Notes under the pieces: generated by a model | What the model saw: the letters and a program-made list of their open reading frames with translations, nothing else | What the model was told of the DNA's origin: nothing | Database searches by the model: none | In this document: positions 2 to 43,952 of the stretch, in pieces | How positions within the stretch are numbered: the first letter of the stretch is position 1 | Layout: every line of letters starts with the position of its first letter | Program-made: the position numbers and the translations under genes | IMG/VR virus record: IMGVR_UViG_3300020171_000059 | Coordinates: 1 to 43,952 of that record | Origin: a virus | Reading direction: 5' to 3' (one strand) | DNA length: 43,952 nucleotides

Positions 2-172
2 GGCCGCACGGTGACGGCCACGTATGGCCGCACGCCGCAGTTGTGCGCCTGCGCTGACGCCTTCGGCAAGGCGGCAATCGCTGGCATATCGAGCGCGATT
101 GAGGCGGCGGAGGCTGGTATTGCGAACGCCTGGGTTGAGCGTTTGCCAACCCTCGAAGGAGGTTTGAAGTGA
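2..172 (+). CDS. C-terminal part of a MAWNP-family small cassette protein (5' truncated by window edge)
   Basis: Open from the window edge to TGA at 170-172, 56 residues. It aligns with the middle and C-terminus of the complete gene at 43490-43921: an RT..ATYG.T..QC.A...G.AA core followed by an I-rich helix. It is therefore a paralogue of that family, whose function I do not know. The right edge of the window stops ten codons into a further copy of the same gene, so this piece may be that copy's C-terminus, with about 70 nt missing between the two edges. The last codons (from AACGCC at about 125) are supplied by the attC-like palindrome that follows. The stop overlaps the GTG start of the next gene. 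Confidence 0.6.
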   Translation, partial: GRTVTATYGRTPQLCACADAFGKAAIAGISSAIEAAEAGIANAWVERLPTLEGGLK

Positions 173-217
173 AAAAGACAAAGCGGGTTGGCAATACGCT
201 CCGACCCTTGGTTCGCT
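121..217 (+). repeat. attC-like recombination site (97 nt, large loop)
   Basis: Left box TGCGAAC (121-127) is matched by right box GTTCGC (211-216). Inner arms CCTGGGTTGAGCG and CGCTCCGACCCTTGG pair with one extra base on the right arm, and a further stem GTTTGCCAACCC/GGGTTGGCAATAC lies inside. The loop carries an AAGGAGG ribosome-binding site and the GTG start of the next gene. The same architecture recurs from 39879 to the right edge. Confidence 0.65.
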
Positions 218-366
218 TCCGCCGTCCTCGCCGCAAATGTGTTTACTGCGGGCACTGGATTAAAAGAGGGGAAGGGATGGTGCATACAGGATATGGACGA
301 GTTATGCATAGCGAAGCGCATTTTGCCCACGGCGCTTGTCATATAAAAGCGAACAACAGAATATAA
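169..366 (+). CDS. Small Cys/His-rich cassette protein with attC-encoded N-terminus
   Basis: 65 residues, GTG start, with AAGGAGG just upstream inside the attC-like loop. The first ~14 residues come from the preceding palindrome and closely resemble the peptide encoded in the palindrome at 39921 (shared MKK.KR..NTLR..V pattern). The cassette-specific part has CVYCGH and later H...H...C, which could bind zinc; no family is recognised. The 5' cassette box GTTCGCTT (211-218) is exactly complementary to AAGCGAAC at 347-354 near its 3' end, as expected for the two ends of one integron-type cassette. Confidence 0.6.
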   Translation: MKKTKRVGNTLRPLVRFRRPRRKCVYCGHWIKRGEGMVHTGYGRVMHSEAHFAHGACHIKANNRI

Positions 367-691: not shown

Positions 692-898
692 ATGAGTGAA
701 TGGGAGAGGATTCATGAGCATCATGAAATACTAAGGGCGCCGCATGGTCAGGCGCGGCTGAATCGGTGGCAGGATCGGGACGATGAGGGGCACAAGGAAA
801 CGCTGATTGAGGTCACGACGAGCCTGGATGAGTTATCGGCGGACATGGCGCGAATGCTGGTGGAGGATTTGAAATGGCTGATCTCAAAGATGAAGTGA
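692..898 (+). CDS. Hypothetical small acidic protein
   Basis: 68 residues, preceded by GGGGGGAAAG before ATG 692. It begins MSEWERIHEHHEI and ends in a helix (LSADMARMLVEDLKWLISKM). No known domain recognised. Its last 25 bases overlap the start of the TSCPD gene at 874, suggesting translational coupling. Confidence 0.55.
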   Translation: MSEWERIHEHHEILRAPHGQARLNRWQDRDDEGHKETLIEVTTSLDELSADMARMLVEDLKWLISKMK

Positions 899-1374
899 AG
901 AGAGAGAAATTACCGGATACGCGCAGGAGTGTGACGCATAAGGCGGTTATTCATAGTGAAAACAAGAGGATAAAATTCTTTTTCACGGTGGGGTTCTACC
1001 CGGAGGAAGAGGTAGAGGGTGGAGGGTTGAAGGTGGAGGGGAAGAACCGGCCGGGGGAGGTGTTTCTGCACATGGATGAAAGCGGATCTACCCTGGACGG
1101 GTTTGCGGATTCATGGGCGATTGCCATTTCACTTTGTCTGCAACGGGGGGAACCGCTGGCGGAGCTGGTGAAGAAGTTTTCGTACCAGGAGTTTGAGCCG
1201 AAGGGGATGACCGAGAATCCGGAGATCCCGTTTGCGCGGAGTCCGGTGGATTATGTGGTGCGGTGGATGGCGAGACATTGTGGGAAGGTGGAGGGGGAAG
1301 AGGGAAAGGTGGAAGGTGGAGGGTTGAAGGTGGAAGAGAAGAAAGAAGGGGAAAATGGGAACAACAAAAATTGA
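874..1374 (+). CDS. TSCPD-domain protein (like the C-terminal domain of B12-dependent ribonucleotide reductase)
   Basis: 166 residues. The region from about residue 58 to 135 matches the TSCPD pattern: GEVFLHMDESGSTLDGF, then ISLCLQRGEPLAELVKKF, then FEPKG and SPVDYVVRWMA. In cellular proteins this domain sits at the C-terminus of class II ribonucleotide reductases; phages also carry it alone, with no firmly known role (nucleotide metabolism is an inference). Two segments rich in KVEGGGLKVE (nt 1008-1042 and 1287-1346) are in-frame copies of a dispersed GGTGGAGGGTTGAAGGT repeat, one within the domain's N-terminal side and one forming the C-terminal tail. It overlaps both neighbours. Confidence 0.7.
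   Translation: MADLKDEVKREKLPDTRRSVTHKAVIHSENKRIKFFFTVGFYPEEEVEGGGLKVEGKNRPGEVFLHMDESGSTLDGFADSWAIAISLCLQRGEPLAELVKKFSYQEFEPKGMTENPEIPFARSPVDYVVRWMARHCGKVEGEEGKVEGGGLKVEEKKEGENGNNKN
1008..1042 (+). repeat. In-frame GGTGGAGGG/TTGAAGGT dispersed repeat
   Basis: Purine-rich unit encoding EVEGGGLKVEGK in the TSCPD gene. Related copies lie at 1287-1346, 3448-3497 and 4030-4096, always in the frame that reads KVEGGG or a close variant. Confidence 0.7.
1287..1346 (+). repeat. In-frame GGTGGAGGG/TTGAAGGT dispersed repeat, tail of TSCPD gene
   Basis: About three degenerate units encoding KVEGEEGKVEGGGLKVEEK at the C-terminus of the 874-1374 product. Confidence 0.7.
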
Positions 1375-2399: not shown

Positions 2400-4673
2400 A
2401 TGCAGGGGATTAAGGGACATGCGCGGGTGCCGCCGCCGGGATGGGAGGATATCCGGGCGGAGGCGATAATATCCGGGATCACGGAGGAAGCGGCGGCGAT
2501 TAAGCTCCTGGGGATGCGCGCGCTGGAGTTGGACCTGGAGGCGACGGATCCGTTCTGTAATGGCTGGGAACCGCCGATCTGGCACGTCTGCGATGCGTTG
2601 CTGGGATTTCCGTGGTGTTATGATAAGTCGTTTTTGAAGAAGTGCAGGACGCGGATGGGAAAGGAGGAGGTGGAGAAAGAGGAGGGTCGGAAGTCGCAAG
2701 TCGAAGGTCGAATGGAGGAACCGACGGATCAAGAAGTGTGGGATTGGTTTTGCGAACGGATGCGGAAACACCTGGGCTATGAACGGGCGGTGAAGATGCT
2801 CTTGATCCTGGGGGGGAATAGGTCGGCAAAATCGGAGTATGCGGCGAAACGCTGTATGATGATGGTGGCGGAGAAGGAGAATGCGCGGGTCTATGCGATG
2901 CACATGAGCGAAGCGCGCAGTAAGCGGGATCAGCAGCCGCTCTTCTGGAAGTATATGCCGTTGGCCTGGCAGGTTCAAGTGGCGAGTGTGAAGGCGTATA
3001 TCAAATTTAAGGCGAAGACGGGGTTTGCGGAGAATAGTTTTATCGCGTTTAATGGCAGTACGGCAATTTTCCTGAATTACACGCAGGATAAGGATAGGGC
3101 CTTGCAGGGGATGGAAGCGGATATGGTGGCGCCGGATGAACTGATCCCGGTGGATTGGATAGAGGATATTCTGTTGCGCCTGGCGACGCGGGCCGGTATG
3201 GGAATTCCAACCTTTACGCCGATTAATGGCTACACGCCGACAGTTAAGATATTTTGCGATGGGGCGAAGGTTATGCAGACGATCCCTGCTTCTCTTTGTC
3301 CGCGGGATGGCGGGGAGCCGGATGAGGCGCGGGCCTTGAACTTGGCACCGGAAGAATACACGGATTTATGGAAGGCGGTGGACGAGAAGCGGGCGGCCAT
3401 GGGGCCGCAATCCAATCCAGAAGAAGTCCTGGATTGGATTGCGGAAGGGAAGGTGGAGGGTGGAGGGTTGAAGGTGGGGGGGGAGGGCGGAGGGGGAAAG
3501 ACGGATCGCGTATTCGATGAAGTTCCGCGAGTGATGAAGTGCAAGGATCCACGGAAGGCGGTGGTGTTCTTTAATCCGAGCGATAATCCGTATGGGAATC
3601 CGAAGGAAGTCATAGCGGACTTGCGTAAGAAGTCGAGGGCATACGTTCGGGAACGGTTTTACGGGCAGGCAGAGAGGACGATTTCTGTACTTATCCCGAA
3701 GTTTCGCAGGAATATCCACGTTATACCGGCCAGCCAGATCCCCGAGGGCGGGACGAATTACTTTTTATACGATCCGGCGGCTAATCGGAATAGTTTTATG
3801 AGCTGGTTCAAGCGGAAGGGGCCGAACACTTATCTATACCGTGAATGGCCGGGGAATTATGCGATACCCGGGGTAGGGGTCCCGGGGCCCTGGGCAATCC
3901 CGTCAGGCAAGAAGGACGGGAAAAATGACGGGGCACCAGGAGAAGGACAGAAGCCGTCATTCGGATTCGGGAATGCGCGATATAAGTTCGAGATGGCGCG
4001 ATTGGAGCGGTGGGGGGACTGGAGGAAGTGGGGGGAAGGGAAAAAGGTGGAAGATGGAAGGTGGAGGGTGGAAGGTGGAGGGGGGAAGGGAGAGGAGTAT
4101 CCGGCGGATGAGGATTTGGCGGAATGGGACGAGCGGAACGGGGCGGAGGAAGTTATTACGTCACGCTTCATTGACAGCCGGGCGGCGAGTACGCCGCGGA
4201 TCGAGAATGACCGGCCGGTGACGTTGCAGACATTGTACGACGAACTGAATATATTTTTCTTTCTGACACCCGGGGCTGATATTACGGATGGAGTGAGCAA
4301 GATCAATTCAGCGCTGGACTATGAGGAAGAGGATCAGAGGTCAGAGGTCGGAGCCACAGAGGGGGAGAGGGCGGAGGTCGGAGCCACGGAGGGGCAGTTG
4401 GGCAGGTTTAAGAATCCGCCGCATTACTTTATATCGGAGGATTGCGAGAATTCGATTTACGCGGTTGAGAGCTGGATGAACGTGGACGGACAGGAGGGGG
4501 CCGTAAAGGATCCGGTTGACCTGATGAGATACTTCTTCACGGCGGAATGCGAGGACGTGGGGCCGAACGATTACCGGGCGCGGGGCGGGGTGGCGTATGG
4601 GGGGAAGGGAGACAGTGGCCGGGGAGAGAATAGGGTTTATCGGGGACCGAGGAGGTTGCCCGTCTCCGCTTAA
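2400..4673 (+). CDS. terL: Terminase large subunit (DNA-packaging ATPase/nuclease)
   Basis: 757 residues. The ATPase domain has a P-loop-like LILGGNRSAKSEYAAK around residues 136-150 (Ala143 replaces the usual Gly before Lys144-Ser145) and a Walker-B-like MVAPDE with Asp246-Glu247. The second half has NYFLYDPAANRNSF..W..., consistent with the RNase-H-like nuclease domain. Length is above the usual 450-650 residues because of in-frame low-complexity insertions: KVEGRMEE-type near residue 100, KVEGGGLKV at nt 3448-3497, a GGGWKVEGGGG-type stretch at 4030-4096, and a direct repeat reading RSEVGATEG/RAEVGATEG at 4332-4396. It heads the packaging/head block. Confidence 0.85.
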   Translation: MQGIKGHARVPPPGWEDIRAEAIISGITEEAAAIKLLGMRALELDLEATDPFCNGWEPPIWHVCDALLGFPWCYDKSFLKKCRTRMGKEEVEKEEGRKSQVEGRMEEPTDQEVWDWFCERMRKHLGYERAVKMLLILGGNRSAKSEYAAKRCMMMVAEKENARVYAMHMSEARSKRDQQPLFWKYMPLAWQVQVASVKAYIKFKAKTGFAENSFIAFNGSTAIFLNYTQDKDRALQGMEADMVAPDELIPVDWIEDILLRLATRAGMGIPTFTPINGYTPTVKIFCDGAKVMQTIPASLCPRDGGEPDEARALNLAPEEYTDLWKAVDEKRAAMGPQSNPEEVLDWIAEGKVEGGGLKVGGEGGGGKTDRVFDEVPRVMKCKDPRKAVVFFNPSDNPYGNPKEVIADLRKKSRAYVRERFYGQAERTISVLIPKFRRNIHVIPASQIPEGGTNYFLYDPAANRNSFMSWFKRKGPNTYLYREWPGNYAIPGVGVPGPWAIPSGKKDGKNDGAPGEGQKPSFGFGNARYKFEMARLERWGDWRKWGEGKKVEDGRWRVEGGGGKGEEYPADEDLAEWDERNGAEEVITSRFIDSRAASTPRIENDRPVTLQTLYDELNIFFFLTPGADITDGVSKINSALDYEEEDQRSEVGATEGERAEVGATEGQLGRFKNPPHYFISEDCENSIYAVESWMNVDGQEGAVKDPVDLMRYFFTAECEDVGPNDYRARGGVAYGGKGDSGRGENRVYRGPRRLPVSA
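3448..3497 (+). repeat. In-frame GGTGGAGGG repeat inside terminase gene
   Basis: Encodes GKVEGGGLKVGGEGGGG. Same family as 1008-1042, inserted between the ATPase and nuclease parts of the terminase. Confidence 0.7.
4030..4096 (+). repeat. In-frame GGTGGAAGGTGGAGGG repeat inside terminase gene
   Basis: Several degenerate units encoding a Gly/Trp/Glu/Lys-rich stretch in the nuclease half of the terminase. Confidence 0.65.
4332..4396 (+). repeat. In-frame CAGAGGTCAGAGG repeat inside terminase gene
   Basis: Degenerate GAGGTCAG/GAGGTCGGAGCCAC units encoding EDQRSEVGATEG and RAEVGATEG. Other members of this family are at 5664, 7706, 8964, 9654, 12757, 19405, 23482, 23907, 25187 and 28550. Confidence 0.7.
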
Positions 4674-7824: not shown

Positions 7825-8958
7825 ATGAAAAGGAAGAAAAAAAGCAAAGTATTGGCCTGGACGATGATTTCGCTTCTGTTCCTGGCAACGATGCCGGCAG
7901 GGGCGTCTTCGGTGCATCCGGTCACGGAGCAAGAGCGCGGATTTGTTGGCGCGACGCACGTAGCGACCATCACGTATGCGGATCTGACGGAAACGAACGT
8001 GAACACGGCGCAGACGTTGACCGACGTATTCAACGTGACGGCCAATCAGCGGATAGAACTGATCGGCATGGAGCTCATAACAGCATTCGATGCCGGCAAC
8101 AACGCGACGGGATCCGTATTGGTGACGGTAGGCGATGCCGCGGCGGGCACAGACTTCTATCTGGACAGCGCAGAGCTGAACAGCAATAAGACCGAAGTCT
8201 GGATGAAGTACGGGCGCGGGTTCCAGGGCGTGACCACCGCAACGCGGACAAACGTAACGGCGGTGAGCCAGCAGACCACGACCCTGAACTACGCCGGGAC
8301 GAATGCGCCCACGGTGACGGTGACGCCGCAGACGACGACCTTGAACTACGCCGGGACGAATGCGCCCACGGTGACGGTGACGCCGCAGACGACGACCTTG
8401 AACTACGCCGGGACGAATGCGCCCACGGTGACGGTGACGCCGCAGACAACGACCTTGAACTACGCCGGGACGAATGCGCCCACGGTGACAGTTGTTCCAG
8501 TCCTGGCCACCAACACCATCGTGTACCTGGATGGATCCAGTAATATCGTCACCAACACTATTGTCTATGTGGCCAGCGCCACGGCCACGGCGACCCTGAC
8601 GGCGGGATCCCTGGCGGTGGCGACGAATGCCACGGCCACGGCGACCCTGACGGCGGGATCCCTGGCGGTGGCGACGAATGCCACGGCCACGGCGACCCTG
8701 ACGGCAGGATCCCTGGCGGTGGCGACGAATGCCACGGCCACGGCGACCCTGACGGCGGGATCCCTGGCGGTGGGCACGAATGTGGCCGTGACCACGGCGG
8801 CCCAGGCGAGCGTGACCGCGCTGACGGACAGCGCCCAGGGGCGCAAGGTCTATACGGTGGATGACACGATTGACTTTGTGTTCACGCCGAATGCGGCGAA
8901 CGCACTTTCGGAGAACACCACCGGCGAAGTAAAGTTCTACTTCAAGGTGATCCGGTAA
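7825..8958 (+). CDS. Repeat-rich exported-type virion protein (head fibre/decoration candidate)
   Basis: 377 residues. The N-terminus is a typical Sec signal peptide: KRKKK, a hydrophobic core (LAWTMISLLFLATMPAG) and ASS. Then a beta-rich domain, four 19-residue repeats (QTTTLNYAGTNAPTVTVTP), four 17-residue repeats (ATATATLTAGSLAVATN), and a C-terminal domain ending VKFYFKVIR. The position between capsid and portal suggests a head decoration or fibre, but a cleavable signal on a virion component is odd. Alternatively it is a surface-exported accessory protein. Confidence 0.6.
   Translation: MKRKKKSKVLAWTMISLLFLATMPAGASSVHPVTEQERGFVGATHVATITYADLTETNVNTAQTLTDVFNVTANQRIELIGMELITAFDAGNNATGSVLVTVGDAAAGTDFYLDSAELNSNKTEVWMKYGRGFQGVTTATRTNVTAVSQQTTTLNYAGTNAPTVTVTPQTTTLNYAGTNAPTVTVTPQTTTLNYAGTNAPTVTVTPQTTTLNYAGTNAPTVTVVPVLATNTIVYLDGSSNIVTNTIVYVASATATATLTAGSLAVATNATATATLTAGSLAVATNATATATLTAGSLAVATNATATATLTAGSLAVGTNVAVTTAAQASVTALTDSAQGRKVYTVDDTIDFVFTPNAANALSENTTGEVKFYFKVIR
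8272..8499 (+). repeat. Four tandem 57-bp coding repeats
   Basis: Each encodes QTTTLNYAGTNAPTVTVTP, nearly identical at DNA level, implying recent duplication. Confidence 0.9.
8578..8781 (+). repeat. Four tandem 51-bp coding repeats
   Basis: Each encodes ATATATLTAGSLAVATN; copies differ by one or two bases. Confidence 0.9.
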
Positions 8959-19234: not shown

Positions 19235-19327
19235 AGGAAGAACGGCTTGCTTTGCTTCGCGCGCGGCGCCGGAGCAAAACGCTCGGGTAGCTACGGAGGG
19301 GCAGGCAAGTTGGCAGGGAGCAAAATT
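19235..19327. repeat. Gap with dispersed repeat fragment upstream of the tRNA
   Basis: CGGCGCCGGAGCAAAACGCTCGGGTAGCTACGGAGGGGCAGG is a degenerate member of the GCTC..GAGCTA..GGGGCAGG family. No gene seen. Confidence 0.45.
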
Positions 19328-19399
19328 TGCGGGGAGGGAAAACGGGAATCCACCGGGTTCATAGTCCGGAGAGAGCTGGTTCGACTCCAGCCCCCGCTA
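19328..19399 (+). tRNA. tRNA-Met (anticodon CAT)
   Basis: 72 nt cloverleaf read by eye: acceptor GCGGGG/CCCCGC with a T-T mismatch at the outermost pair, a D-arm with GGG in its loop, anticodon stem CCGGG/TCCGG with loop TTCATAG (anticodon at 19360-19362), variable AGAGA, T-arm GCTGG-TTCGACT-CCAGC, discriminator A, no encoded CCA. The mismatched first pair and three G residues at the base of the anticodon stem are initiator-like features, so elongator Met, initiator or Ile2 cannot be separated by eye. Confidence 0.7.
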
Positions 19400-19404
19400 T
19401 TTAA

Positions 19405-35624: not shown

Positions 35625-35690
35625 ATGAATGAGTTGGCACTTTTCGCAGGGGGAGGAGGCGGGATCCTGGGATCATTGCTCCTTGGATGA
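35625..35690 (+). pseudogene. 21-residue N-terminal remnant of a cytosine methyltransferase
   Basis: ATG 35625 (GAAAGGAA upstream) encodes NELALFAGGGGGILGSLLLG then stop. It matches the motif-I start of the methyltransferase at 35991 (ELALFAGAGGGILGGNLLGW) but differs in sequence, so it is the 5' end of another allele. It stops exactly where the HNH gene begins (overlapping ATG), i.e. at the LG|W codons. Confidence 0.65.
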
Positions 35691-35989
35691 TGCTTGACAA
35701 GATTATAGATGAACCGTCATGCAAGCGGTATCGAAGAAAATTACGGGAAGCCGTGATTCAGCATTATGGGGGAAAATGCGCTTGTTGCGGAGAAACCCAT
35801 ATTGAATTACTTTGCATAGATCACATTACTGGCGGGGGCACACAACACAGAAAGGCGTTGGGAAGAATTACGGTTTATTCTTGGCTCAAAGCAAGTGGTT
35901 ATCCCGCCGGTTTCCGGGTGCTTTGCTGGAATTGTAATAGCAGTCTTGCGCTCTATGGATATTCACCGCTGAACACGGAGTATAAATAG
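35687..35989 (+). CDS. HNH homing-type endonuclease
   Basis: 100 residues (ATG 35687; 35690 also possible). CACCGE near residue 32, then LLCIDHITGGG..HRK and GFRVLCWNCNSS give the two zinc-binding Cys pairs and the HNH core of phage homing endonucleases. It lies between a methyltransferase N-terminal remnant and an apparently full methyltransferase start. That is the footprint of an endonuclease inserted in motif I of the methyltransferase with the displaced 5' end re-supplied downstream. It is translationally coupled to the remnant. Confidence 0.8.
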   Translation: MMLDKIIDEPSCKRYRRKLREAVIQHYGGKCACCGETHIELLCIDHITGGGTQHRKALGRITVYSWLKASGYPAGFRVLCWNCNSSLALYGYSPLNTEYK

Positions 35990-35990
35990 T

Positions 35991-36881
35991 GTGGCATTTC
36001 AACAACAAAAACTTAGAGAACTCGCACTGTTTGCCGGAGCAGGTGGAGGGATACTTGGCGGGAACTTGCTCGGATGGAAATGCGTCTGCGCTGTTGAAAT
36101 TATTGCCTATCGCCGGGAGCGACTTCTGCAACGGCAACGGGAAGGACATCTGCCGGCGTTCCCCATCTGGGATGACGTTACGACGTTCGACGGGCGGCCG
36201 TGGAATGGAATCGTTGACGTGGTATCGGGGGGATTCCCTTGTCAGGACATATCTGCCGCCGGCAAAGGCGCCGGGATCCGCGGGAGCAGAAGCGGATTGT
36301 GGGCCGAGTTTGCCCGGATCGTTGGCGAAGTTCAACCCGGATTCGTATGGGTGGAAAACTCGCCAATGCTTACTATTCGGGGGCTTGATATCGTTTGCGG
36401 GGACCTGGCCGCGCTGGGGTATGATGCAAAATGGGGAGTTGTTTCCGCTGCCGACGCCATCTGGACTCAGTCTCTTGCGTCTGGTCATTTCCCGGCACTC
36501 GACCACCTTCGGGAACGAATCTGGATTTGTGCAACGCGCACCGACGGCGAAGGCAAGTCCAAGCGGACCGGATTTTGCCAGGACCAACCGACCGGGAAGC
36601 GGCGGGGACGACTTGGCGACGGCAGTGGCGAGAGTACCGACGCCGCGTTGCGAAGACTCGCAATGCGCTGGTGGGCACAGGGGGATGGACGATACGCTGT
36701 ACGGGATGATATGCAGGCCGAAGACGGTAAGGATACCGACGGTCACGAAGTCCATGATGACGGCGCAGGACATGGAACAGGCGCGATTTGCGGGGAACGG
36801 CGGGAAGCGTCCGGAGTATGCGAAGATATGCCGGATGCCCACGCCCCGAGCCGCCGAGCATTGCCAGCACAACAGCCATGA
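35991..36881 (+). CDS. DNA (cytosine-5)-methyltransferase, N-terminal two thirds, ended by an in-frame TGA
   Basis: 296 residues from GTG 35991. It has C5-methyltransferase motifs: I (LFAGAGGGILGG), IV (GGFPCQDIS with catalytic Cys), VI (VENSPML) and VIII (RERIWI). The target-recognition and motif IX-X region should follow, but the frame meets TGA at 36879-36881 and then continues in the same frame to 37247, where AIGDGQVPAVV (motif X-like) appears. So either the gene carries one nonsense mutation, or it is a split enzyme. Most of its length overlaps another conserved-looking frame (36205-37221). It probably protects phage DNA from restriction. Confidence 0.75.
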   Translation: MAFQQQKLRELALFAGAGGGILGGNLLGWKCVCAVEIIAYRRERLLQRQREGHLPAFPIWDDVTTFDGRPWNGIVDVVSGGFPCQDISAAGKGAGIRGSRSGLWAEFARIVGEVQPGFVWVENSPMLTIRGLDIVCGDLAALGYDAKWGVVSAADAIWTQSLASGHFPALDHLRERIWICATRTDGEGKSKRTGFCQDQPTGKRRGRLGDGSGESTDAALRRLAMRWWAQGDGRYAVRDDMQAEDGKDTDGHEVHDDGAGHGTGAICGERREASGVCEDMPDAHAPSRRALPAQQP

Positions 36882-37221
36882 CAACGGGATGGCGTTGAGT
36901 GCGGCGGTGAGGATGCCGACGCTTCACGGATTCAGCAAGGATGGGAAGAGCAACGGACCGAGCGGAAACGAGCTGGGGAGAGCGGTGAATCGAATGCCGA
37001 CTTGCCGATCGCAAAAAACAACATCGGAAAATCCGGAAACATGGCAGAAAAGGAAAGATGCCGGGAAAGTATCAACTCCGCCGTTGGCAATGGTGGCTGG
37101 TGGCAGTCTGAATCCGGACTGGGTCGAGTGGCTTCACGGGTGGCCGATCGGGTGGACCGGATCAGCGCCATTGGAGACGGTCAGGTTCCAGCAGTGGTTA
37201 AACTCGCATGGGATTTATTAA
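36205..37221 (+). CDS. Overlapping-frame protein of the methyltransferase locus
   Basis: 338 residues from ATG 36205, in the frame two bases before the methyltransferase frame (equivalent to +1); the frame is open back to 35989. It has features I recognise from a phage protein family often annotated beside or as methyltransferase parts: CGPSLPGSLAKFNPDS, GWKTRQCLLFGGL, GTWPRWGMMQNGE, recurring R(M/V)PTP..., and the C-terminal GGSLNPDWVEWLHGWPIGWT. No methyltransferase catalytic motif lies in this frame. It stays open for 410 codons across a region where the other frame has a stop. Function unknown. Confidence 0.55.
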   Translation: MESLTWYRGDSLVRTYLPPAKAPGSAGAEADCGPSLPGSLAKFNPDSYGWKTRQCLLFGGLISFAGTWPRWGMMQNGELFPLPTPSGLSLLRLVISRHSTTFGNESGFVQRAPTAKASPSGPDFARTNRPGSGGDDLATAVARVPTPRCEDSQCAGGHRGMDDTLYGMICRPKTVRIPTVTKSMMTAQDMEQARFAGNGGKRPEYAKICRMPTPRAAEHCQHNSHDNGMALSAAVRMPTLHGFSKDGKSNGPSGNELGRAVNRMPTCRSQKTTSENPETWQKRKDAGKVSTPPLAMVAGGSLNPDWVEWLHGWPIGWTGSAPLETVRFQQWLNSHGIY

Positions 37222-37247: not shown

Positions 37248-38104
37248 AGAGGGGGACACCGGATCATCCGAAGGTTTTGATGCTGGCGAATCGGCTGGGA
37301 CTTAAAAAATACGCAGCGGTTGGTCTGCTGGAAACCTTATGGCATTTCACGGCCCGATACGCTCCCAGAGGTGACATTGGGAGGTTCTCCGACGGAATAA
37401 TCGCGACAAGTCTCGACTGGGGCGGGAATGTTCCGGACTTGATTGAAGCGCTGGTGCAGGAACATTGGCTGGATCAAAGTAATGAATACAGGCTTGTTGT
37501 TCATCATTGGTCGGACCATGCGGACGACACCTGTGATAAGTATCTGGCGAATCATGGAATGATCTATGCAGACGGAAAAGAGCCCCGTAGAAGTCCAGAA
37601 AAGGGCGTAAAAGTAAAGTCTCTGGCGGAGAAGTCGGGAAAAGTCGGGAAAAGTCGGGAAAAGTTAGCCCTCTCAGAACCAGAACCAGAATCAGAATCAA
37701 AACCAGAATCAGTGCCGTTGCCGGTAGGGGAACCCACGGCGACTACGGAAGATTCCGGAAAAGTCGGGAAAAGTCCGGAACCGGCGACTACGGGGATGCT
37801 GGAACAAGTTCAGAGGATTAAGGGGATTCGGAAGGAATTTGAGGTATTACGGGATGTGGACATTGAAAATGCGCTCAAGGGGTGCCCGGAGGAACACCGG
37901 GAGTCGGCACTTGGAGATTTTGAGAGGGATATGGTGGCGGCATTGGCGATTCCGGATATGCCAGTGAAGGTTTTGCGATCATATCTGGCGGTGGCGGCAA
38001 AAAAAAACAACCCGGGTGCGGTAGGAGCTGGGGAACCGATGTCACGCAGGTTTATCACTGAAAAGGAGAAGAAAACCAATGGAAAAGCAACCGCTATACA
38101 GTGA
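37244..38104 (+). CDS. Replication initiator/helicase-loader-like protein
   Basis: 286 residues from ATG 37244 (GGAAGG upstream; overlap with the methyltransferase end). The N-terminal ~100 residues (GTPDHPKVLMLANRLGLKKY ... VGLLETLWHFTARYAP.GDIGRFSD) form a winged-helix domain I recognise from phage replication proteins encoded before dnaB. A low-complexity linker follows with direct repeats (SGKVGKSRE; GAAAAGTCGG units at 37624-37664 and 37756-37775), then a C-terminal helical domain. Overlap with dnaB supports an origin-binding or loader role. Confidence 0.65.
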   Translation: MKRGTPDHPKVLMLANRLGLKKYAAVGLLETLWHFTARYAPRGDIGRFSDGIIATSLDWGGNVPDLIEALVQEHWLDQSNEYRLVVHHWSDHADDTCDKYLANHGMIYADGKEPRRSPEKGVKVKSLAEKSGKVGKSREKLALSEPEPESESKPESVPLPVGEPTATTEDSGKVGKSPEPATTGMLEQVQRIKGIRKEFEVLRDVDIENALKGCPEEHRESALGDFERDMVAALAIPDMPVKVLRSYLAVAAKKNNPGAVGAGEPMSRRFITEKEKKTNGKATAIQ

Positions 38105-39679: not shown

Positions 39680-39924
39680 GCGAGTGGATCAATGTCAGGG
39701 ATAGATTGCCGAATGAGGATACGGTCCAGCCTTTGGTTGGCGGTCTTGGCGATGGGCCGCCTTATTGCATGGACTGTTGCGGGTTTGGCTACAAACGGAA
39801 AAACCTCACTCACTTTCCGTTTACGGAGTTTAAATACTGTTCAACATGCGCGAGAACGGGCCGCGCAAAAGATCATCCCGCCAACGCCCCTCTTGAGCGT
39901 TTGCGAGAAAAGGAGATTGAATGA
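39676..39924 (+). CDS. DUF551-like/Cys-rich small protein, first gene of the cassette array
   Basis: 82 residues, ATGA overlap upstream. N-terminal EWINVRDRLPNED resembles the DUF551 start. The middle has CMDCCGFGYKR and CSTCARTG, two Cys pairs suggesting a zinc ribbon. The last ~14 residues (ANAPLERLREKEIE) are encoded by the left half of the first attC-like site (39879), so the cassette boundary lies within its reading frame. Confidence 0.5.
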   Translation: MSEWINVRDRLPNEDTVQPLVGGLGDGPPYCMDCCGFGYKRKNLTHFPFTEFKYCSTCARTGRAKDHPANAPLERLREKEIE

Positions 39925-39969
39925 AAAAGAAACGGTTGTCGAGCAATACGCTCCGAGAGGTTGTTGGCC
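39879..39969 (+). repeat. attC-like site A (91 nt)
   Basis: CGCCAAC...GTTGGCC outer boxes; arms CCTCTTGAGCG / CGCTCCGAGAGG with one extra right-arm base; inner TTTGCGAG/GAGCAAT. The loop holds AAGGAG and the ATG of a 17-residue peptide. Confidence 0.65.
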
Positions 39970-39974
39970 GATGA
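39921..39974 (+). CDS. 17-residue peptide encoded in the attC-like loop
   Basis: MKKKRLSSNTLREVVGR, preceded by AAAAGGAG, with its stop overlapping the ATG of the next cassette gene (ATGA). It resembles the attC-encoded first residues of the gene at 169. It probably acts as a translation leader coupling the cassette gene to a ribosome-binding site carried by the recombination site. Confidence 0.45.
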   Translation: MKKKRLSSNTLREVVGR

Positions 39975-40165
39975 ATCACAACCGATACGAGAAAGTGAAG
40001 CGCTTGGCGGAAGAATCCCCGCAAGAAGGGGAACGATCCGCAGCACGCGAAGCAATGAGGCGCATGGAGACGCGAAGGCCACCAGCTGAACATTGGAAGA
40101 TCGTATGGACGCTGAACATGGTGTGCATGAGACCGTCCGGCATACCGCGGGTTACGACGTGTTAA
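39971..40165 (+). CDS. Hypothetical cassette protein
   Basis: 64 residues, helical and charged (YEKVKRLAEESPQEGERSAAREAMRRMETRRPP). The cassette 5' box TGTTGGCCG (39962-39970) is complementary to CGGCCAACA (40166-40174) just after its stop. Translation is likely coupled to the upstream 17-residue leader. No family recognised. Confidence 0.5.
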   Translation: MNHNRYEKVKRLAEESPQEGERSAAREAMRRMETRRPPAEHWKIVWTLNMVCMRPSGIPRVTTC

Positions 40166-40200
40166 CGGCCAACACGTCGGGGGAGGCTGCCTTACCCGAA
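40155..40200 (+). repeat. Half site: hairpin CGACGTGTT-AACGGCC-AACACGTCG at cassette end
   Basis: Perfect 9-bp stem containing the R''-type box GGCCAAC. The right-hand GTT box of a full attC is missing, so this boundary is a partial or terminator-type element. Confidence 0.45.
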
Positions 40201-40208
40201 AGGAAACC

Positions 40209-40388
40209 ATGAATAATAAATCAAACAGGAAGGGCAGGAGACTTTGCAGAACGTGCGTCTCCTACTATCAGGAACGGTATGGGTATTGCGTGCTAATTGG
40301 GAAGCGCGTGCAAGGGCATATCGGCGGCTGGCCATGCTGGAAACGTCGATCCAAGAAGCCCAACAACAATTTGAGCGGTGGCTCTTAG
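40209..40388 (+). CDS. 59-residue Cys-rich cassette protein
   Basis: ATG 40209 after GAAAGGAAACC. Cys pattern CRTCVSYYQERYGYC...PCW suggests a four-Cys zinc site. The last residues (KKPNNNLSGGS) are encoded by the attC-like site at 40358, showing the stop is supplied by the recombination site. No family recognised; +1-frame alternatives through this stretch are rejected for lack of a start site. Confidence 0.5.
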   Translation: MNNKSNRKGRRLCRTCVSYYQERYGYCVLIGKRVQGHIGGWPCWKRRSKKPNNNLSGGS

Positions 40389-40414
40389 CCATACGCTCCA
40401 AATGCTGGTTGGGC
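40358..40414 (+). repeat. attC-like site C, canonical core boxes (57 nt)
   Basis: R'' box GCCCAAC (fits RYYYAAC) and R' box GTTGGGC (fits GTTRRRY). Arms ATTTGAGCG / CGCTCCAAAT with an extra base, short loop GTGGCTCTTAGCCATA. The best match here to the established attC consensus; outer complement extends to GAAGCCCAAC/GTTGGGCTTC. Confidence 0.75.
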
Positions 40415-40439
40415 TTCCCCGGCCAGCGGAAAGGAAGAG

Positions 40440-40925
40440 ATGATCGAGATTACGAAGAGCGAGACGGCGGACACTCGGGCCTGCGATTTCTCCAAAGTGT
40501 CTGAAGAGACCTTGAAGCAGTCGAGCGAGACGCACATTGGCGACGTGTCACGCGGGCTGGCCTTCTTCGGCGCACTGTTGGCTGAGGCCGCAGTGACCCA
40601 CGATTCGGACAAGCTCAGCGCCCTGGCCCACTTCCATTCCGATTTCGTCACAGGATTCAAAACGACGGGATGGTGGGACAATCACAGGAAGATCACGCGG
40701 CACCATCTCCAGGCCGCGGACGGCGTGCCCCCAGACGTGAACCTGATCGACGTGCTCGAAATGATCGTGGATTGCGTCATGGCGGGAATGGCACGAGCCG
40801 GGAAGCTGTATCCGGTGGCGATCCCCGACGATGTGCTAAAACGAGCGTTCGAGAACACGGTGGAACTACTCAAGGCGCAAGTCGTCGTGAAGCCCAACGA
40901 CAGGGGTGAGGGGCGCGAAGTATGA
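40440..40925 (+). CDS. DUF5662-like phage protein (cassette-borne)
   Basis: 161 residues, AAAGGAAG upstream. Contains VTHDSDKLSALAHFHSDFVT then WWDNHRKITRHHL, the D-x-S-K...H..HH pattern of DUF5662-type phage proteins (a possible metal-dependent hydrolase by its His/Asp content). The C-terminal VKPNDRGEGREV is read from the next attC-like site. Its cassette ends are exactly complementary (40408-40417 / 40889-40898). Confidence 0.6.
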   Translation: MIEITKSETADTRACDFSKVSEETLKQSSETHIGDVSRGLAFFGALLAEAAVTHDSDKLSALAHFHSDFVTGFKTTGWWDNHRKITRHHLQAADGVPPDVNLIDVLEMIVDCVMAGMARAGKLYPVAIPDDVLKRAFENTVELLKAQVVVKPNDRGEGREV

Positions 40926-40951
40926 GCGTACCCTCCACCGCTTTGTTCGCC
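40892..40951 (+). repeat. attC-like site D (60 nt)
   Basis: GCCCAAC ... GTTCGCC; arms GGTGAGGGGCGC / GCGTACCCTCCACC with one unpaired right-arm base. The loop contains ATGAGCG, a possible start for the next gene. Confidence 0.65.
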
Positions 40952-41464
40952 GGTCCGGTTTTCTCCCGTCATTGGGCGATGCCGAGTGCGGATACGTTTG
41001 ATATTCTGCCGATTGGCAACTTTGTGAGGCGGTGGATGGCTGGCGCGGAGGTGTCTGTTGACCCGTTCGCCCGGAACAAGCGATGGGCCACGCACACGAA
41101 CGATCTGAACCCGGCAACGCAAGCCGAACACCACCTGGAGGCGCAGGCGTTCCTGACCATGCTGGTCGAGCGCGGTGTACGCGCCGACCTGCTGATCTTC
41201 GATCCGCCGTACAGCCCGCGCCAAATCAGCGAGTGCTACGCCACGGCTGGCATGAAGGCGGGCATGGCGGACACACAGAACGCGAAGCTGGTCAAGGAGT
41301 GCCGCGACCTGCTGCGCCAGATTGCGCGGCCCGGAGCGGTGTGCCTGTCCTTCGGGTGGAATAGCGCGGGGATGGGCAAGGAGTGGAATCTGGAAGAATT
41401 AATACTGGTGACACATGGCAGCTGTCATAACGACACGATTTGTATGGCCGAACGTCGCGGGTGA
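40922..41464 (+). CDS. Adenine-type DNA methyltransferase-like protein (cassette-borne)
   Basis: 180 residues from ATG 40922 in the attC loop. TTG 40943 or ATG 40979 are alternatives; the conserved-looking VFSRHWAMPSADTF favours a start upstream of 40979. Core: VSVDPFARNKRWATHTNDLNP, then LLIFDPPYSPRQISE (motif IV DPPY of N6-adenine/N4-cytosine methyltransferases), then PGAVCLSFGWNSAGMGK and HNDTICMAE. It is a short phage family with the DPPY motif; catalytic activity not proven. A second probable DNA-modification gene besides the one at 35991. Confidence 0.7.
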   Translation: MSVPSTALFAGPVFSRHWAMPSADTFDILPIGNFVRRWMAGAEVSVDPFARNKRWATHTNDLNPATQAEHHLEAQAFLTMLVERGVRADLLIFDPPYSPRQISECYATAGMKAGMADTQNAKLVKECRDLLRQIARPGAVCLSFGWNSAGMGKEWNLEELILVTHGSCHNDTICMAERRG

Positions 41465-41502
41465 GCCACGCGCTTCGCGTAGGCTCGACCCGCTGGTTCG
41501 CA
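41447..41502 (+). repeat. attC-like site E (56 nt)
   Basis: GCCGAAC ... GTTCGCA; arms GCGGGTGAGCC / GGCTCGACCCGC with one extra C; inner hairpin ACGCG-CTTC-GCGT. From AACGTCGCGG on it is identical to the site at 43151. Confidence 0.75.
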
Positions 41503-41526
41503 GATTGAATTGAAAGGAGAATGACT

Positions 41527-41697
41527 ATGGAGAATAAATTCCTTGTTGGAGTTCTGGCCGGTGACATCGTAATTATGCGCCCGAAACAACGATTGACCAA
41601 GGAAGAGGCGCTGAACCTGGCCGCGTGGATTGTCGCGCTTGCCGACCCATCCGGCGAACAGTGGGGAAAAACGCTTGAGGCGGTTCTCGAAACGTAG
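41527..41697 (+). CDS. MENKFL cassette protein, copy 1
   Basis: 56 residues, AAGGAG seven bases before ATG 41527. MENKFLVGVLAGDIVIMRPK then a helix KEEALNLAAWIVALAD and GEQWGKTLEAVLET. Identical or nearly identical copies at 42196 and 43231. A short beta-hairpin plus helix protein; the family is unknown to me. The cassette begins TTCGCAGATTG and ends at TGCGAAC, perfectly complementary boxes. Confidence 0.7.
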   Translation: MENKFLVGVLAGDIVIMRPKQRLTKEEALNLAAWIVALADPSGEQWGKTLEAVLET

Positions 41698-41754
41698 TGC
41701 GAACGCCAAAAATGAGCGTGAGCGGTAGCGATACGCTCGATTTTCTGGTTCGAC
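41698..41754 (+). repeat. attC-like site F (57 nt)
   Basis: TGCGAAC ... GTTCGAC; arms CCAAAAATGAGCGT / ACGCTCGATTTTCTGG with unpaired right-arm bases, loop GAGCGGTAGCGAT. First bases shared with sites I and L after the other MENKFL copies. Confidence 0.7.
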
Positions 41755-41770
41755 CAGCAGAAAGGACAAC

Positions 41771-41965
41771 ATGAAGAAATGGACGACACTCGAAATGTAT
41801 TTTCGGAGAGCGGTTGCTACCGGACTCATTGACTTTGCCATTAGAGCAGAGTGCAAGGAAGATGGCCGAGTTGTCTTTTATATCCATCCGGCGAATGCCT
41901 CTGGAGAGACGGCTGATTTCGAGGTAAACGAAAACAGGGTTCAACACAATAGAGATATTTCATAG
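41771..41965 (+). CDS. Hypothetical cassette protein
   Basis: 64 residues after AGAAAGGACAAC. KKWTTLEMYFRRAVATGLID then FAIRAECKEDGRVVFYIHPA, a mixed alpha-beta layout. Cassette boxes GTTCGACC (41748) and GGTCGAAC (41965) are exact complements. No family recognised. Confidence 0.5.
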   Translation: MKKWTTLEMYFRRAVATGLIDFAIRAECKEDGRVVFYIHPANASGETADFEVNENRVQHNRDIS

Positions 41966-42038
41966 GTCGAACGCCTCGCATGAGGCTGAGCGAAGGAGCG
42001 ACAGCGTATGAGCGATAGCCTCGATGCGGTGGTTCGGT
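41966..42038 (+). repeat. attC-like site G (73 nt)
   Basis: GTCGAAC ... GTTCGGT; arms CGCATGAGGCT / AGCCTCGATGCG with extra C; the loop contains GAAGGAGCGACAGCGTATG, a Shine-Dalgarno and start codon. Confidence 0.7.
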
Positions 42039-42193
42039 TTCTGCGGTGGTTACAATGCAAGCTTTGGCTTTGTGGAGGGCAAATCGAGCGAGTCCGAGAC
42101 AAGAATGGCGTCGAGTGGCTTGGGCTGCGTTGCACAGCAACCGGAACGTTTCACAACCCAACCAAGTCGCAGATTGAATTGAAAGGAGAATGA
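42008..42193 (+). CDS. Hypothetical cassette protein started from the attC loop
   Basis: 61 residues, with AAGGAG about 11 bases upstream of ATG 42008, both in the loop of site G. The first ~9 residues come from the site. The rest (CKLWLCGGQIERVRDKNGVE WLGLRC by pieces) has three Cys and a beta-hairpin-like look. The C-terminal QIELKGE is read from the leader of the next MENKFL cassette. No family recognised. Confidence 0.4.
   Translation: MSDSLDAVVRFLRWLQCKLWLCGGQIERVRDKNGVEWLGLRCTATGTFHNPTKSQIELKGE
42141..42168 (+). repeat. Truncated attC-like half site H
   Basis: CCGGAACG box followed by CACAACCCAACCAAG and then directly TCGCAGATTGAATTG, the MENKFL cassette start without its GT. The right half of the site is missing or was deleted when the MENKFL copy arrived. 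Confidence 0.4.
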
Positions 42194-42195
42194 CT

Positions 42196-42366
42196 ATGGA
42201 GAATAAATTCCTTGTTGGAGTTCTGGCCGGTGACATCGTAATTATGCGCCCGAAACAACGATTGACCAAGGAAGAGGCGCTGAACCTGGCCGCGTGGATT
42301 GTCGCGCTTGCCGACCCATCCGGCGAACAGTGGGAAAAAACGCTTGAGGCGGTTCTCGAAACGTAG
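42196..42366 (+). CDS. MENKFL cassette protein, copy 2
   Basis: 56 residues, same as copies 1 and 3 except Gly to Glu in QW[G/E]KTLEAVLET (a G-to-A change). Starts with the same leader AGATTGAATTGAAAGGAGAATGACT. The cassette's left GT is altered (AGTCGCAG). Confidence 0.7.
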   Translation: MENKFLVGVLAGDIVIMRPKQRLTKEEALNLAAWIVALADPSGEQWEKTLEAVLET

Positions 42367-42425
42367 TGCGAACGCCCCGGCTCAGGCTGGAGCGGTAGCG
42401 ACTAGCCTGAAGCCGGTTGTTGGAA
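42367..42425 (+). repeat. attC-like site I (59 nt)
   Basis: TGCGAAC ... GTTGGAA; arms CCGGCTCAGGCT / AGCCTGAAGCCGG with one extra A. The right end GTTGTTGGAACAC is exactly complementary to GTGTTCCAACAAC at 42674. Confidence 0.7.
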
Positions 42426-42440
42426 CACGAAAGGAGAAAC

Positions 42441-42725
42441 ATGGATAAATCAGAGATCGAATATGGACAAGCCCCTGCACAATGGGACACGGCAAGTCTG
42501 GCCGGCAAAGTGGCGGAATTGGAAAAGCAGAAGGACGACCTATTGAGGTTATGCGGTGAAATCTTGGCGACCCTGAAAGTGAACCGTGAACGAGAAACGC
42601 TCATTACGATTCACCATGATCACATGGCCAAGTTTGATACATTGGTCGCCGCATGGTGGAAGCGTTTCAATGAGTGTTCCAACAACGGGCGCACCTGCGA
42701 CGCGCCCACCAAGGAGTCAAGATGA
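42441..42725 (+). CDS. Hypothetical coiled-coil cassette protein
   Basis: 94 residues from ATG 42441 (GAAAGGAGAAAC upstream; the earlier in-frame start at 42417 lies in the site). SLAGKVAELEKQKDDLLRLC is a coiled-coil typical of small phage proteins. The C-terminal NNGRTCDAPTKESR is read through the next palindrome. 13-nt complementary cassette ends. Confidence 0.55.
   Translation: MDKSEIEYGQAPAQWDTASLAGKVAELEKQKDDLLRLCGEILATLKVNRERETLITIHHDHMAKFDTLVAAWWKRFNECSNNGRTCDAPTKESR
42674..42715 (+). repeat. Partial attC-like site J
   Basis: GTGTTCCAACAAC plus hairpin GGGCGC-ACCTGCGAC-GCGCCC, but no GTT right box; AAGGAGTCAAGATG (ribosome-binding site and start) follows directly. Confidence 0.45.
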
Positions 42726-42964
42726 AGAAACAACGACAGCGGGCGCGGCGTAAGGTGACGCCCCTGGTTGGCCGTGCATGGGCGTGGAAGATTCAGGACA
42801 TGAGCGGACGATGGAGCCTATGCAACTGGTCAGAACCTTCCCGCGACATGCTCGAACGGTCAAGAAAGAAACCGTCGCCAGAAGCGGTTGCAGTGTGGGT
42901 AAAGATGACGGCCAACCCGCAGGTCAGCGGCCCGACGCCGGGAGGAAGCCATGAAGAAAACTGA
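42722..42964 (+). CDS. Hypothetical cassette protein
   Basis: 80 residues from ATG 42722 (ATGA overlap). Very basic start KKQRQRARRKVTPLVGRAWA, then WKIQDMSGRWSLCNWSEPSR. No family recognised. Overlaps the next start, so the two probably form a two-gene cassette. Confidence 0.5.
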   Translation: MKKQRQRARRKVTPLVGRAWAWKIQDMSGRWSLCNWSEPSRDMLERSRKKPSPEAVAVWVKMTANPQVSGPTPGGSHEEN

Positions 42965-43217
42965 GGCGCAATTTGGCGTCGGTACGCTGCACCAGCTTGT
43001 TGGGGCCGCCCTATTCGTATTATTGATTACTGCATGGTGGTTCGACCATCGCGGGTTTCTACACGGCGTTGCGGTGGGGTTTCAGATCTGGTGGCTTTGG
43101 AGCATTCGCCCGCATAGGACATGCGCGAAGGAAGAACTTTTCGAGGCACAGCATAACGTCGCGGGTGAGCCACGCGCTTCGCGTAGGCTCGACCCGCTGG
43201 TTCGCAGATTGAATTGA
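42951..43217 (+). CDS. Small membrane protein, cassette-borne
   Basis: 88 residues. Two hydrophobic segments (LVGAALFVLLITAWWF and LHGVAVGFQIWWLWSI). The C-terminal ~18 residues (VAGEPRASRRLDPLVRRLN) are the translation of attC-like site K. No family recognised. Confidence 0.5.
   Translation: MKKTEAQFGVGTLHQLVGAALFVLLITAWWFDHRGFLHGVAVGFQIWWLWSIRPHRTCAKEELFEAQHNVAGEPRASRRLDPLVRRLN
43151..43206 (+). repeat. attC-like site K (56 nt)
   Basis: GCATAAC ... GTTCGCA; otherwise identical to site E from AACGTCGCGG to the MENKFL leader, so site plus following cassette form a ~250 bp duplicated block. Confidence 0.75.
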
Positions 43218-43230
43218 AAGGAGAATGACT

Positions 43231-43401
43231 ATGGAGAATAAATTCCTTGTTGGAGTTCTGGCCGGTGACATCGTAATTATGCGCCCGAAACAACGATTGA
43301 CCAAGGAAGAGGCGCTGAACCTGGCCGCGTGGATTGTCGCGCTTGCCGACCCATCCGGCGAACAGTGGGGAAAAACGCTTGAGGCGGTTCTCGAAACGTA
43401 G
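43231..43401 (+). CDS. MENKFL cassette protein, copy 3
   Basis: 56 residues, nucleotide-identical to copy 1 by eye. Preceded by the same attC-like site as copy 1 but followed by a different one (site L), so the conserved block ends at the gene's own TGCGAACGCC box. Confidence 0.7.
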   Translation: MENKFLVGVLAGDIVIMRPKQRLTKEEALNLAAWIVALADPSGEQWGKTLEAVLET

Positions 43402-43461
43402 TGCGAACGCCAGCGGTGAGGGGCGCGAGTTTCGAGCGTCACCTCCGCCGCCTTGTTCGCA
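43402..43461 (+). repeat. attC-like site L (60 nt)
   Basis: TGCGAAC ... GTTCGCA; arms GCGGTGAGGGGCGC / GCGTCACCTCCGC pair imperfectly. The right box starts the MAWNP cassette TTCGCAATCTGAATC. Confidence 0.6.
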
Positions 43462-43489
43462 ATCTGAATCCAAGAAGGAGGGTTAAGTC

Positions 43490-43921
43490 ATGGCATGGAA
43501 TCCGAGTCCGAAGGTGGCCGACTGCCGGGAGATAGCCCGGAAGTGGGGCAACAAGCATCAGGTTATAGTGCTCGCCATAGACCGGGACGCCCGGACGCTG
43601 GAAATGGCGACCTACGGCGCAACGAAGGAACAGTGCAAGGCGGCGCGAGAACTTGGTGACGCGGCGTATGACGCCGTGATTCAAGCGTGCGATCCCGCCA
43701 GCCCGGTAATCACGCAAGCCACCGTGAACGCCCGATGGCTGATTGAGCGGCTGGACCGGGTTCATGACGCGCTGTGTCCCGACAAGTGCGGAACCTGGCA
43801 GCAGCGTGCAGACCGGGCGGCAGAGGCGGCAGAGGGTATCGTGAACGCCGAGCGTCAGGGGCGGCGCGAAGCGACGTACCCTGAACGCTCTTGTTCGCAA
43901 TCTGAATCGGGAGGGAACTGA
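43490..43921 (+). CDS. MAWNP-family hypothetical protein (complete copy)
   Basis: 143 residues, AGAAGGAGG upstream. MAWNPSPKVADCREIARKWG, then VIVLAIDRDARTLEMATYGA, then AARELGDAAYDAVIQAC, a layout (strand, strand, helix) I associate with small phage hypothetical proteins; no function known. The C-terminal ~25 residues (AERQGRREATYPERSCSQSE on) are read through the next attC-like site. Paralogues at 2-172 (C-terminal part) and 43923 (start only). Confidence 0.6.
   Translation: MAWNPSPKVADCREIARKWGNKHQVIVLAIDRDARTLEMATYGATKEQCKAARELGDAAYDAVIQACDPASPVITQATVNARWLIERLDRVHDALCPDKCGTWQQRADRAAEAAEGIVNAERQGRREATYPERSCSQSESGGN
43840..43899 (+). repeat. attC-like site M (60 nt)
   Basis: CGTGAAC ... 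GTTCGCA; arms GAGCGTCAGGG / CCCTGAACGCTC with one extra A. Followed by the same TTCGCAATCTGAATC cassette start as at 43456. Confidence 0.7.
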
Positions 43922-43922
43922 C

Positions 43923-43952
43923 ATGGCATGGAATCCGAGTCCGAAGGTTGCC
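43923..43952 (+). CDS. Second MAWNP-family gene, 3' truncated by window edge
   Basis: First ten codons, MAWNPSPKVA, after GGGAGGGAACTGAC, differing from the complete copy by single bases. The matching C-terminal half may be the piece at 2-172. Confidence 0.65.
   Translation, partial: MAWNPSPKVA

Follow-up and report, generated by a model that had tools for sequence, protein, structure and literature searches.

An integrase-less array of attC sites on a tailed-phage genome, with cassette genes running against their recombination sites

Integrons are usually viewed as bacterial elements in which attC follows each gene and a single promoter reads the array. Here, we describe an array of integron-type attC sites on a tailed phage, IMG/VR virus record IMGVR_UViG_3300020171_000059, analyzed over its full length of 43,952 nucleotides (nt; hereafter, the window). 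We class the array as a CALIN, a cluster of true integron attC sites that lacks an integrase, because at least two closely spaced covariance-model sites lie on a contig without an integrase gene. The usual cassette order, gene then attC with shared polarity, is not part of the CALIN definition and was not found, as 13 of 13 sites are reversed. We consider it likely that the array is built of back-to-front cassettes, each with attC placed 5' of its gene and opposite to it, that are moved by an integrase of the host. A broader proposal, to which we give slightly less than an even chance, is that phages hold their own class of such cassettes, with attC ahead of a gene and supplying its ribosome-binding site (RBS), start codon, and N-terminal peptide, and that host integrases pass these between unrelated phages and return them to bacterial integrons.

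Identity and orientation of the attC sites

Candidate sites were located by a structure scan whose criteria were AAC/GTT boxes, pairing between the outer boxes, three segments of paired arm, and extrahelical bases on a single arm, and by a covariance model (R1) trained on 22 bacterial attC sites, each oriented in gene sense and taken from outside the window. The training sites came from class 1 plasmid cassettes, a Lentisphaerales metagenome-assembled genome (MAG), and arrays adjoining intI in genomes of a Verrucomicrobiota order. These two tools superseded a loose palindrome scan, which had given approximately 10 false matches per shuffled window. The structure scan returned nine sites at a score of at least 28, all within the array, versus one in 20 shuffled windows. 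The model matched 13 window sites, 12 of them at 39,879-43,899 and one at 121-217, and no attC outside the array across the 44-kb window; 12 matches were obtained under default settings (E 1.4e-10 to 6e-4, the weakest being ~6e-4), and the thirteenth, at 42677-42773, with filters off (E 1.4e-5). A preliminary description of this DNA had reported about eleven palindromes of 56-97 nt between short same-strand genes and had named a lack of covariance-model matches, together with a fixed gene order in related genomes, as the result that could overturn it. The palindromes are indeed present and far above chance, although their number is 13, one of them lying at 121-217 because the array runs across the contig ends.

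The AAC/GTT core is kept in 13 of 13 sites, which have the R and L boxes, extrahelical bases, and variable terminal structure of attC. The full RYYYAAC/GTTRRRY consensus is matched exactly only at 40358-40414, the site for which this fit had been noted earlier, and related bacterial sites deviate from it too; used alone as a detector, this pattern proved too strict, recovering one site. A hairpin at ~40150-40170 with a perfect 9-bp stem (positioned as in an earlier list) was rejected as non-attC by the covariance model. As described previously, no integron integrase was found: there is no PF00589 match anywhere in the contig, which is unclosed, so that a small gap remains unseen. Nor does the contig contain a complete integron (intI with attI and Pc). 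It could be argued that the palindromes are terminators, elements resembling repetitive extragenic palindromes, or substrates of another phage recombinase, given that they are hairpins between short same-strand genes and that Rfam at its gathering threshold reported only tRNA in the window and no attC-array match. Against this, a model made from bacterial integron sites scores up to 52 bits here and finds nothing elsewhere in 44 kb, the extrahelical bases are conserved, the boxes are complementary across genes, and the contig lacks a tyrosine recombinase domain; we regard a non-integron origin as the most improbable of the alternatives considered.

All 13 attC sites match the model on the minus strand, whereas the array genes lie on the plus strand, and plus-strand scores of the same sites are far lower (15 versus 36.7 bits and 12.7 versus 44.8 bits). 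Every window site scanned (10 of 10) has its extrahelical bases on the right arm, whereas every true class 1 attC site scanned has them on the left, with genes on the plus strand; thus, the window sites point against their genes. The preliminary description had rightly recorded the recurrent unpaired base on the right arm, but overlooked what it meant for polarity. When the longest open reading frame (ORF) in each clear interval between sites was compared in direction with attC, genes ran opposite to attC in 9/9 intervals of the window and along it in 15/15 intervals of bacterial arrays and 2/2 of phage TJE1 (window versus canonical, Fisher p 8e-7). Other viral contigs gave 30 clear intervals with opposite and 6 with the same polarity. 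A habit of the host group was ruled out as the source of this polarity, the readable bacterial arrays of the matching order being canonical.

Because attC hairpins are near-symmetric, the reversal might conceivably be a misreading of attC polarity in an ordinary CALIN, made of canonical gene-then-attC cassettes from a host integron; phage CALINs of canonical polarity do exist, as in TJE1, where three sites and the genes are all on the plus strand. However, the same model and scan place class 1, Lentisphaerales, Verrucomicrobiota-type, and TJE1 sites in gene sense, and two lines of evidence that do not depend on the model, an exact repeat unit and start codons in attC loops (both described below), agree with the reversal. 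We therefore judge such a misreading to be very unlikely.

The mobile unit and attC-borne start codons

The boundaries of a cassette are revealed by a gene for a 58-aa protein that is present three times. Copies 1 and 3 are 100% identical over 251 bp, and this unit begins at the C in the left AAC of the site before it and runs up to the AA of the site after it, so that it reads C-attC-gene-AA, with the gene behind attC and the cut at the left AA^C. In each of the three copies, the gene ends at AAC, and the attC site that comes next is a different one every time. The following attC was thus not copied with the gene, which contradicts the canonical rule, under which it would have been co-duplicated. 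No attC was found near relatives of the 58-aa protein (L009-L011) or of the array's MAWNPSP protein (L141, L142), and a search for the 58-aa protein in isolated phages gave no relatives.

The boxes at the start of a cassette and in the site that follows are complementary over 3-10 nt, and over at least 7 nt in 7 of 12 cassettes. The mean is 6.75 nt, versus 4.0 nt for unrelated pairs, and none of 20,000 shuffles reached the observed total. The complementarity noted earlier is therefore beyond chance, although its range is 3-10 nt and not 7-13 nt; it fits the closure of a circle and is predicted under either polarity.

In five sites (40892, 41966, 42677, 42910, and 121), the loop holds a start codon, in most cases accompanied by an RBS; the ORFs that begin there cross the right box, and most of them include GTT as a codon. 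Counting only sites with a Shine-Dalgarno-like match inside the site and an ORF reading out of it, 28 of 93 viral-contig sites carry an RBS and start on the gene strand versus 1 of 93 on the attC strand, and GTT is in frame in 20 of these 28; bacterial attC sites gave 1 of 24 on either strand. Without the RBS filter, the comparison is uninformative (47/93 versus 37/93). Starts within attC are expected if attC and the downstream gene form one unit. An arrangement in which in-frame starts fuse peptides onto whichever cassette follows was ruled out, the unit being attC plus gene. The window methyltransferase begins MSVPSTAL from attC 3; in a viral contig (L139), this attC type and N-terminus precede a different methylase.

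These observations also bear on whether the reversed sites, though true attC, are now immobile and inherited as fixed operon punctuation, i.e., as hairpins with ribosome-binding sites. The missing integrase, one decayed site, and methylase ORFs that now depend on attC-encoded N-termini would all suit such a relict. On the other hand, the two 251-bp copies are 100% identical, which indicates at least one recent movement, box complementarity is maintained, and relatives of the phage vary in the presence and content of the array. A relict array is thus unlikely, if less so than a misread polarity.

Several points weigh against back-to-front cassettes moved by a host integrase. The opposite rule is not absolute in other viral contigs, given the six same-sense intervals, and some intervals are undecided; the outer boxes of the array sites differ from the IntI1 consensus; and a decayed site, located between 42038 and 42367, shows that the array is incompletely preserved. 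In addition, six of the viral contigs compared (G003, G005, L120, L129, L138, and L040) are putative rather than confirmed phages.

Relatives, recurrence, and the proposed mechanism

The array occupies a variable stretch bounded by the DnaB-helicase operon on one side and the phage terminase on the other; it wraps round the contig ends, from ~39.88 kb to ~0.36 kb, with a gap between these ends. Two viral contigs (L006 and L007; helicase 85% and terminase 67-70% identical) have a helicase-terminase distance of 2 kb and keep the same order of a small gene after the helicase and a gene matching window 874-1374. Since they join helicase to terminase, the window ends are adjacent in the real genome. 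No attC was found at the helicase-terminase junction of either contig, whereas a distant relative (L008; helicase 45%) has a different array, with attC of the same type directly after the helicase. A fixed gene order in relatives was thus not seen, and single cassettes recur in other contexts, as shown by the duplicated 251-bp unit (41453-41703 and 43157-43407) and by a DUF5662-like gene. Together with the 13 model matches, these varying relatives support the initial proposal of a CALIN on a phage genome.

Pattern and protein scans of virus contigs located further arrays. At least five more phage contigs, whose structural genes are unrelated, hold reversed arrays, frequently with DNA methyltransferase genes. 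Hallmark genes confirm these contigs as phage: G002 (38,623 bp), which is complete as judged by its terminal repeat of ~128 nt, encodes a portal, protease, major head protein, and terminase; G041 has head, terminase, and portal genes beside its reversed array, G043 portal and head genes, G044 a terminase and protease, and G004 a terminase and portal. The window terminase is not shared by any array-bearing phage contig compared. Four MT-A70 methylases (L137, L138, L139, and L064), a Dam-type methylase (L139), and a C5 methylase (L147) are found as cassettes opposite to attC and starting within it; the window methyltransferase (40922-41464) gave no relatives among viral contigs when used as a query. 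Relatives of the DUF5662-like gene in cassette 2 were found in 35 virus contigs; complementary boxes frame the gene in L147, L149, L150, and L164 (10, 8, 8, and 7 nt), and elsewhere it is a plain phage gene, e.g., behind a tRNA-like sequence in L143. If phages do hold their own class of cassettes, this family, with and without attC, would represent cassettes caught during formation. One 57-kb contig (IMGVR 3300005512_000040; L062 and L064) carries about twenty attC sites oriented both ways, most genes being opposite to attC, and a tyrosine recombinase at 8112-8582; no phage hallmark was found among the few of its ORFs tested.

A narrow attC pattern matched one Verrucomicrobia MAG and one Lentisphaerales MAG, and strong integron integrases are present in both of these bacterial genomes. 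IntI is present in 20 of 31 genomes of the order of the Verrucomicrobia MAG, whose attC sites resemble those of the array. As the contig has no integrase and IntI is common in this order, a host enzyme acting in trans is a reasonable candidate for the mover. In the same MAG (JABGQM010000096.1, L067 45-358), a cassette adjoining a strong intI has a phage-type attC and a reversed gene, and its leader GTTGGGTTTCCCCGATCAGACGGAAAGGAA resembles the leader behind window site 40358; this single case suggests exchange between the phage and such bacteria, possibly from phage to integron.

The folded bottom strand of attC is recombinogenic, and its unpaired features set the strand (PMC8946536). With attC polarity reversed, the recombinogenic strand here is the coding strand. 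In the mechanism we propose, the window plus strand (coding, and the "bottom strand" of every attC) would fold into a hairpin, a host integron integrase would cut it at the left AA^C, and cassettes would be added, removed, and shuffled at the downstream end of the operon near 347-357, where 347-354 is the presumed entry side. As the orientation of an inserted cassette is set by attC polarity, a cassette would have to be back to front to lie in sense with the phage operon, and expressibility could thus select a phage pool of such cassettes; any cassette order would be translatable, since many carry an RBS and start codon inside the attC loop. Cassette excision is raised by lagging-strand placement (PMC5371416), and the reversal could put the recombinogenic strand on the template of the lagging strand, provided that the genes are oriented with the replication fork. 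We infer the action of IntI in trans, the host phylum, the direction of entry, and the reason for selecting reversed cassettes. At the presumed entry side (347-380), AAGCGAACAACAGAATATAACGTTTTGTTATG resembles an AAC-spacer-GTT double box and could be attI-like or a secondary target.

CALINs have been described in phages before: 17 were reported, including those of TJE1, P12002L, PH101, MW202573, and Shewanella M16-3, and five of six attC sites tested from virulent phages recombined with attI1 via IntI1 (Qi et al., 2023; PMC9892861). These share with the window an attC cluster, short cassettes, methyltransferase genes, and a phage without an integrase. TJE1, however, has three sites of canonical polarity, whereas the window has 13 sites opposite to genes and starts in loops. 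In MW202573 (L192 2069-3738), three weak model matches lie on the minus strand and the genes on the plus strand; this published CALIN may be a reversed array that was not described as such, the parts of PMC9892861 drawn on here making no comment on it. The sedentary chromosomal integrons of Verrucomicrobiota and Lentisphaerota (MAGs L048, L099, L105, and L107) share with the array the sequence and structure type of attC (e.g., a GAGCGTA..CGCTC stem and a CCAG/CAAG spacer), but their genes run in attC sense, starts in attC are rare, and three of the arrays (L099, L105, and L107) adjoin intI. Class 1 cassettes (aadA, qac, oxa; L043-L046) have the same R/L box plan, extrahelical bases, and AAC/GTT core; they differ in carrying attC at the gene 3' end, left-arm extrahelical bases in gene sense, and GTTRRRY boxes. 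Superintegrons hold a minority of reverse-oriented cassettes, with the gene against attC polarity, as scattered exceptions; here, the reversal is the rule for the whole array and several phages. Searches of the open-access literature returned no description of reversed phage arrays or of phage start codons borne by attC. Phage CALINs are thus already known, but the reversed, start-codon-bearing form appears to be undescribed and recurrent.

The reversed arrangement shared by unrelated phages points to a common pool of swappable gene cassettes and would imply that this pool is separate, phage-adapted, and served by host integrases. It bears on the origin of cassettes, as phages have members of one gene family both with attC and without it, and on the exchange among phages of small genes, for instance those for DNA methyltransferases, which may give protection from host defense.

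Gene content of the array and neighboring features

Table 1. Sites and genes of the attC array, in window coordinates
Feature	Position	Strand	Remarks
attC 1, 91 nt	39879..39969	-	44.8 bits; last array site on the helicase side; loop holds AAAGGAGATTGAATGAAAAAG, a leader peptide ending at an ATGA overlap with the next ORF
Cassette 1 ORFs	39972..40388	+	39972-40166 (64 aa) and 40209-40388 (59 aa); no known family; PHROGs search for ORF 40209-40388 without match
attC 2, 57 nt	40358..40414	-	36.7 bits on minus, 15 on plus; sole exact RYYYAAC/GTTRRRY
Cassette 2 gene, 161 aa	40440..40925	+	Weak DUF5662 resemblance; 35 viral-contig relatives
attC 3, 60 nt	40892..40951	-	Model match; contains the methyltransferase ATG
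Cassette 3 gene, DNA methyltransferase	40922..41464	+	phrog_11619, 1e-34
attC 4, 56 nt	41447..41502	-	Model match
Cassette 4, repeat copy 1	41453..41703	+	attC plus 58-aa gene MTMENKFLVGV (41521-41697); 251 bp, identical to 43157-43407
attC 5, 57 nt	41698..41754	-	Model match
Cassette 5 gene, 64 aa	41771..41965	+	From ORF list
attC 6, 73 nt	41966..42038	-	ATG 42008 in loop; ORF through GTT in frame
Repeat gene copy 2	42167..42376	+	Upstream attC lost; terminates at the same AAC boundary
attC 7, 59 nt	42367..42425	-	Model match
Cassette 7 gene	42417..42725	+	From ORF list; ATG start probably further in
attC 8, 97 nt	42677..42773	-	Loop with AAGGAGTCAAGATG; ORF in frame across GTT
attC 9, 96 nt	42910..43005	-	Loop with GGAGGAAGCCATG (ORF 42951-43217), in frame across GTT
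attC 10, copy of attC 4	43151..43206	-	Model match
Cassette 10, repeat copy 3	43157..43407	+	Identical to 41453-41703
attC 11, 60 nt	43402..43461	-	Model match
Cassette 11 gene MAWNPSPKVA, 143 aa	43490..43921	+	Weak DUF4253
attC 12, 60 nt	43840..43899	-	Followed by a MAWNPSP paralogue cut by the contig end
attC 13, 97 nt	121..217	-	52.3 bits, E 1.4e-10; loop with AAGGAGGTTTGAAGTG (ORF 169-366)
AAGCGAAC, end of cassette 13	347..354	+	8-nt complement of the right box of cassette 13 itself

Outside the array, a second DNA methyltransferase-like gene (phrog_1008) lies at 35989-37221, adjoining an HNH endonuclease gene at 35687-35989. The replication-initiator gene contains tandem GGGAAAAGTC repeats with a 10-nt period at 37586-37790, and a tRNA-Met (CAT) gene is located at 19327-19400. 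At 874-1374 and 2400-4673, a GGTGGAGGGTTGAAGGTGGAGGGG-like sequence is iterated in frame within several genes, including the terminase (KVEGGGLKVEG); these iterations are low-complexity inserts in otherwise conserved proteins.

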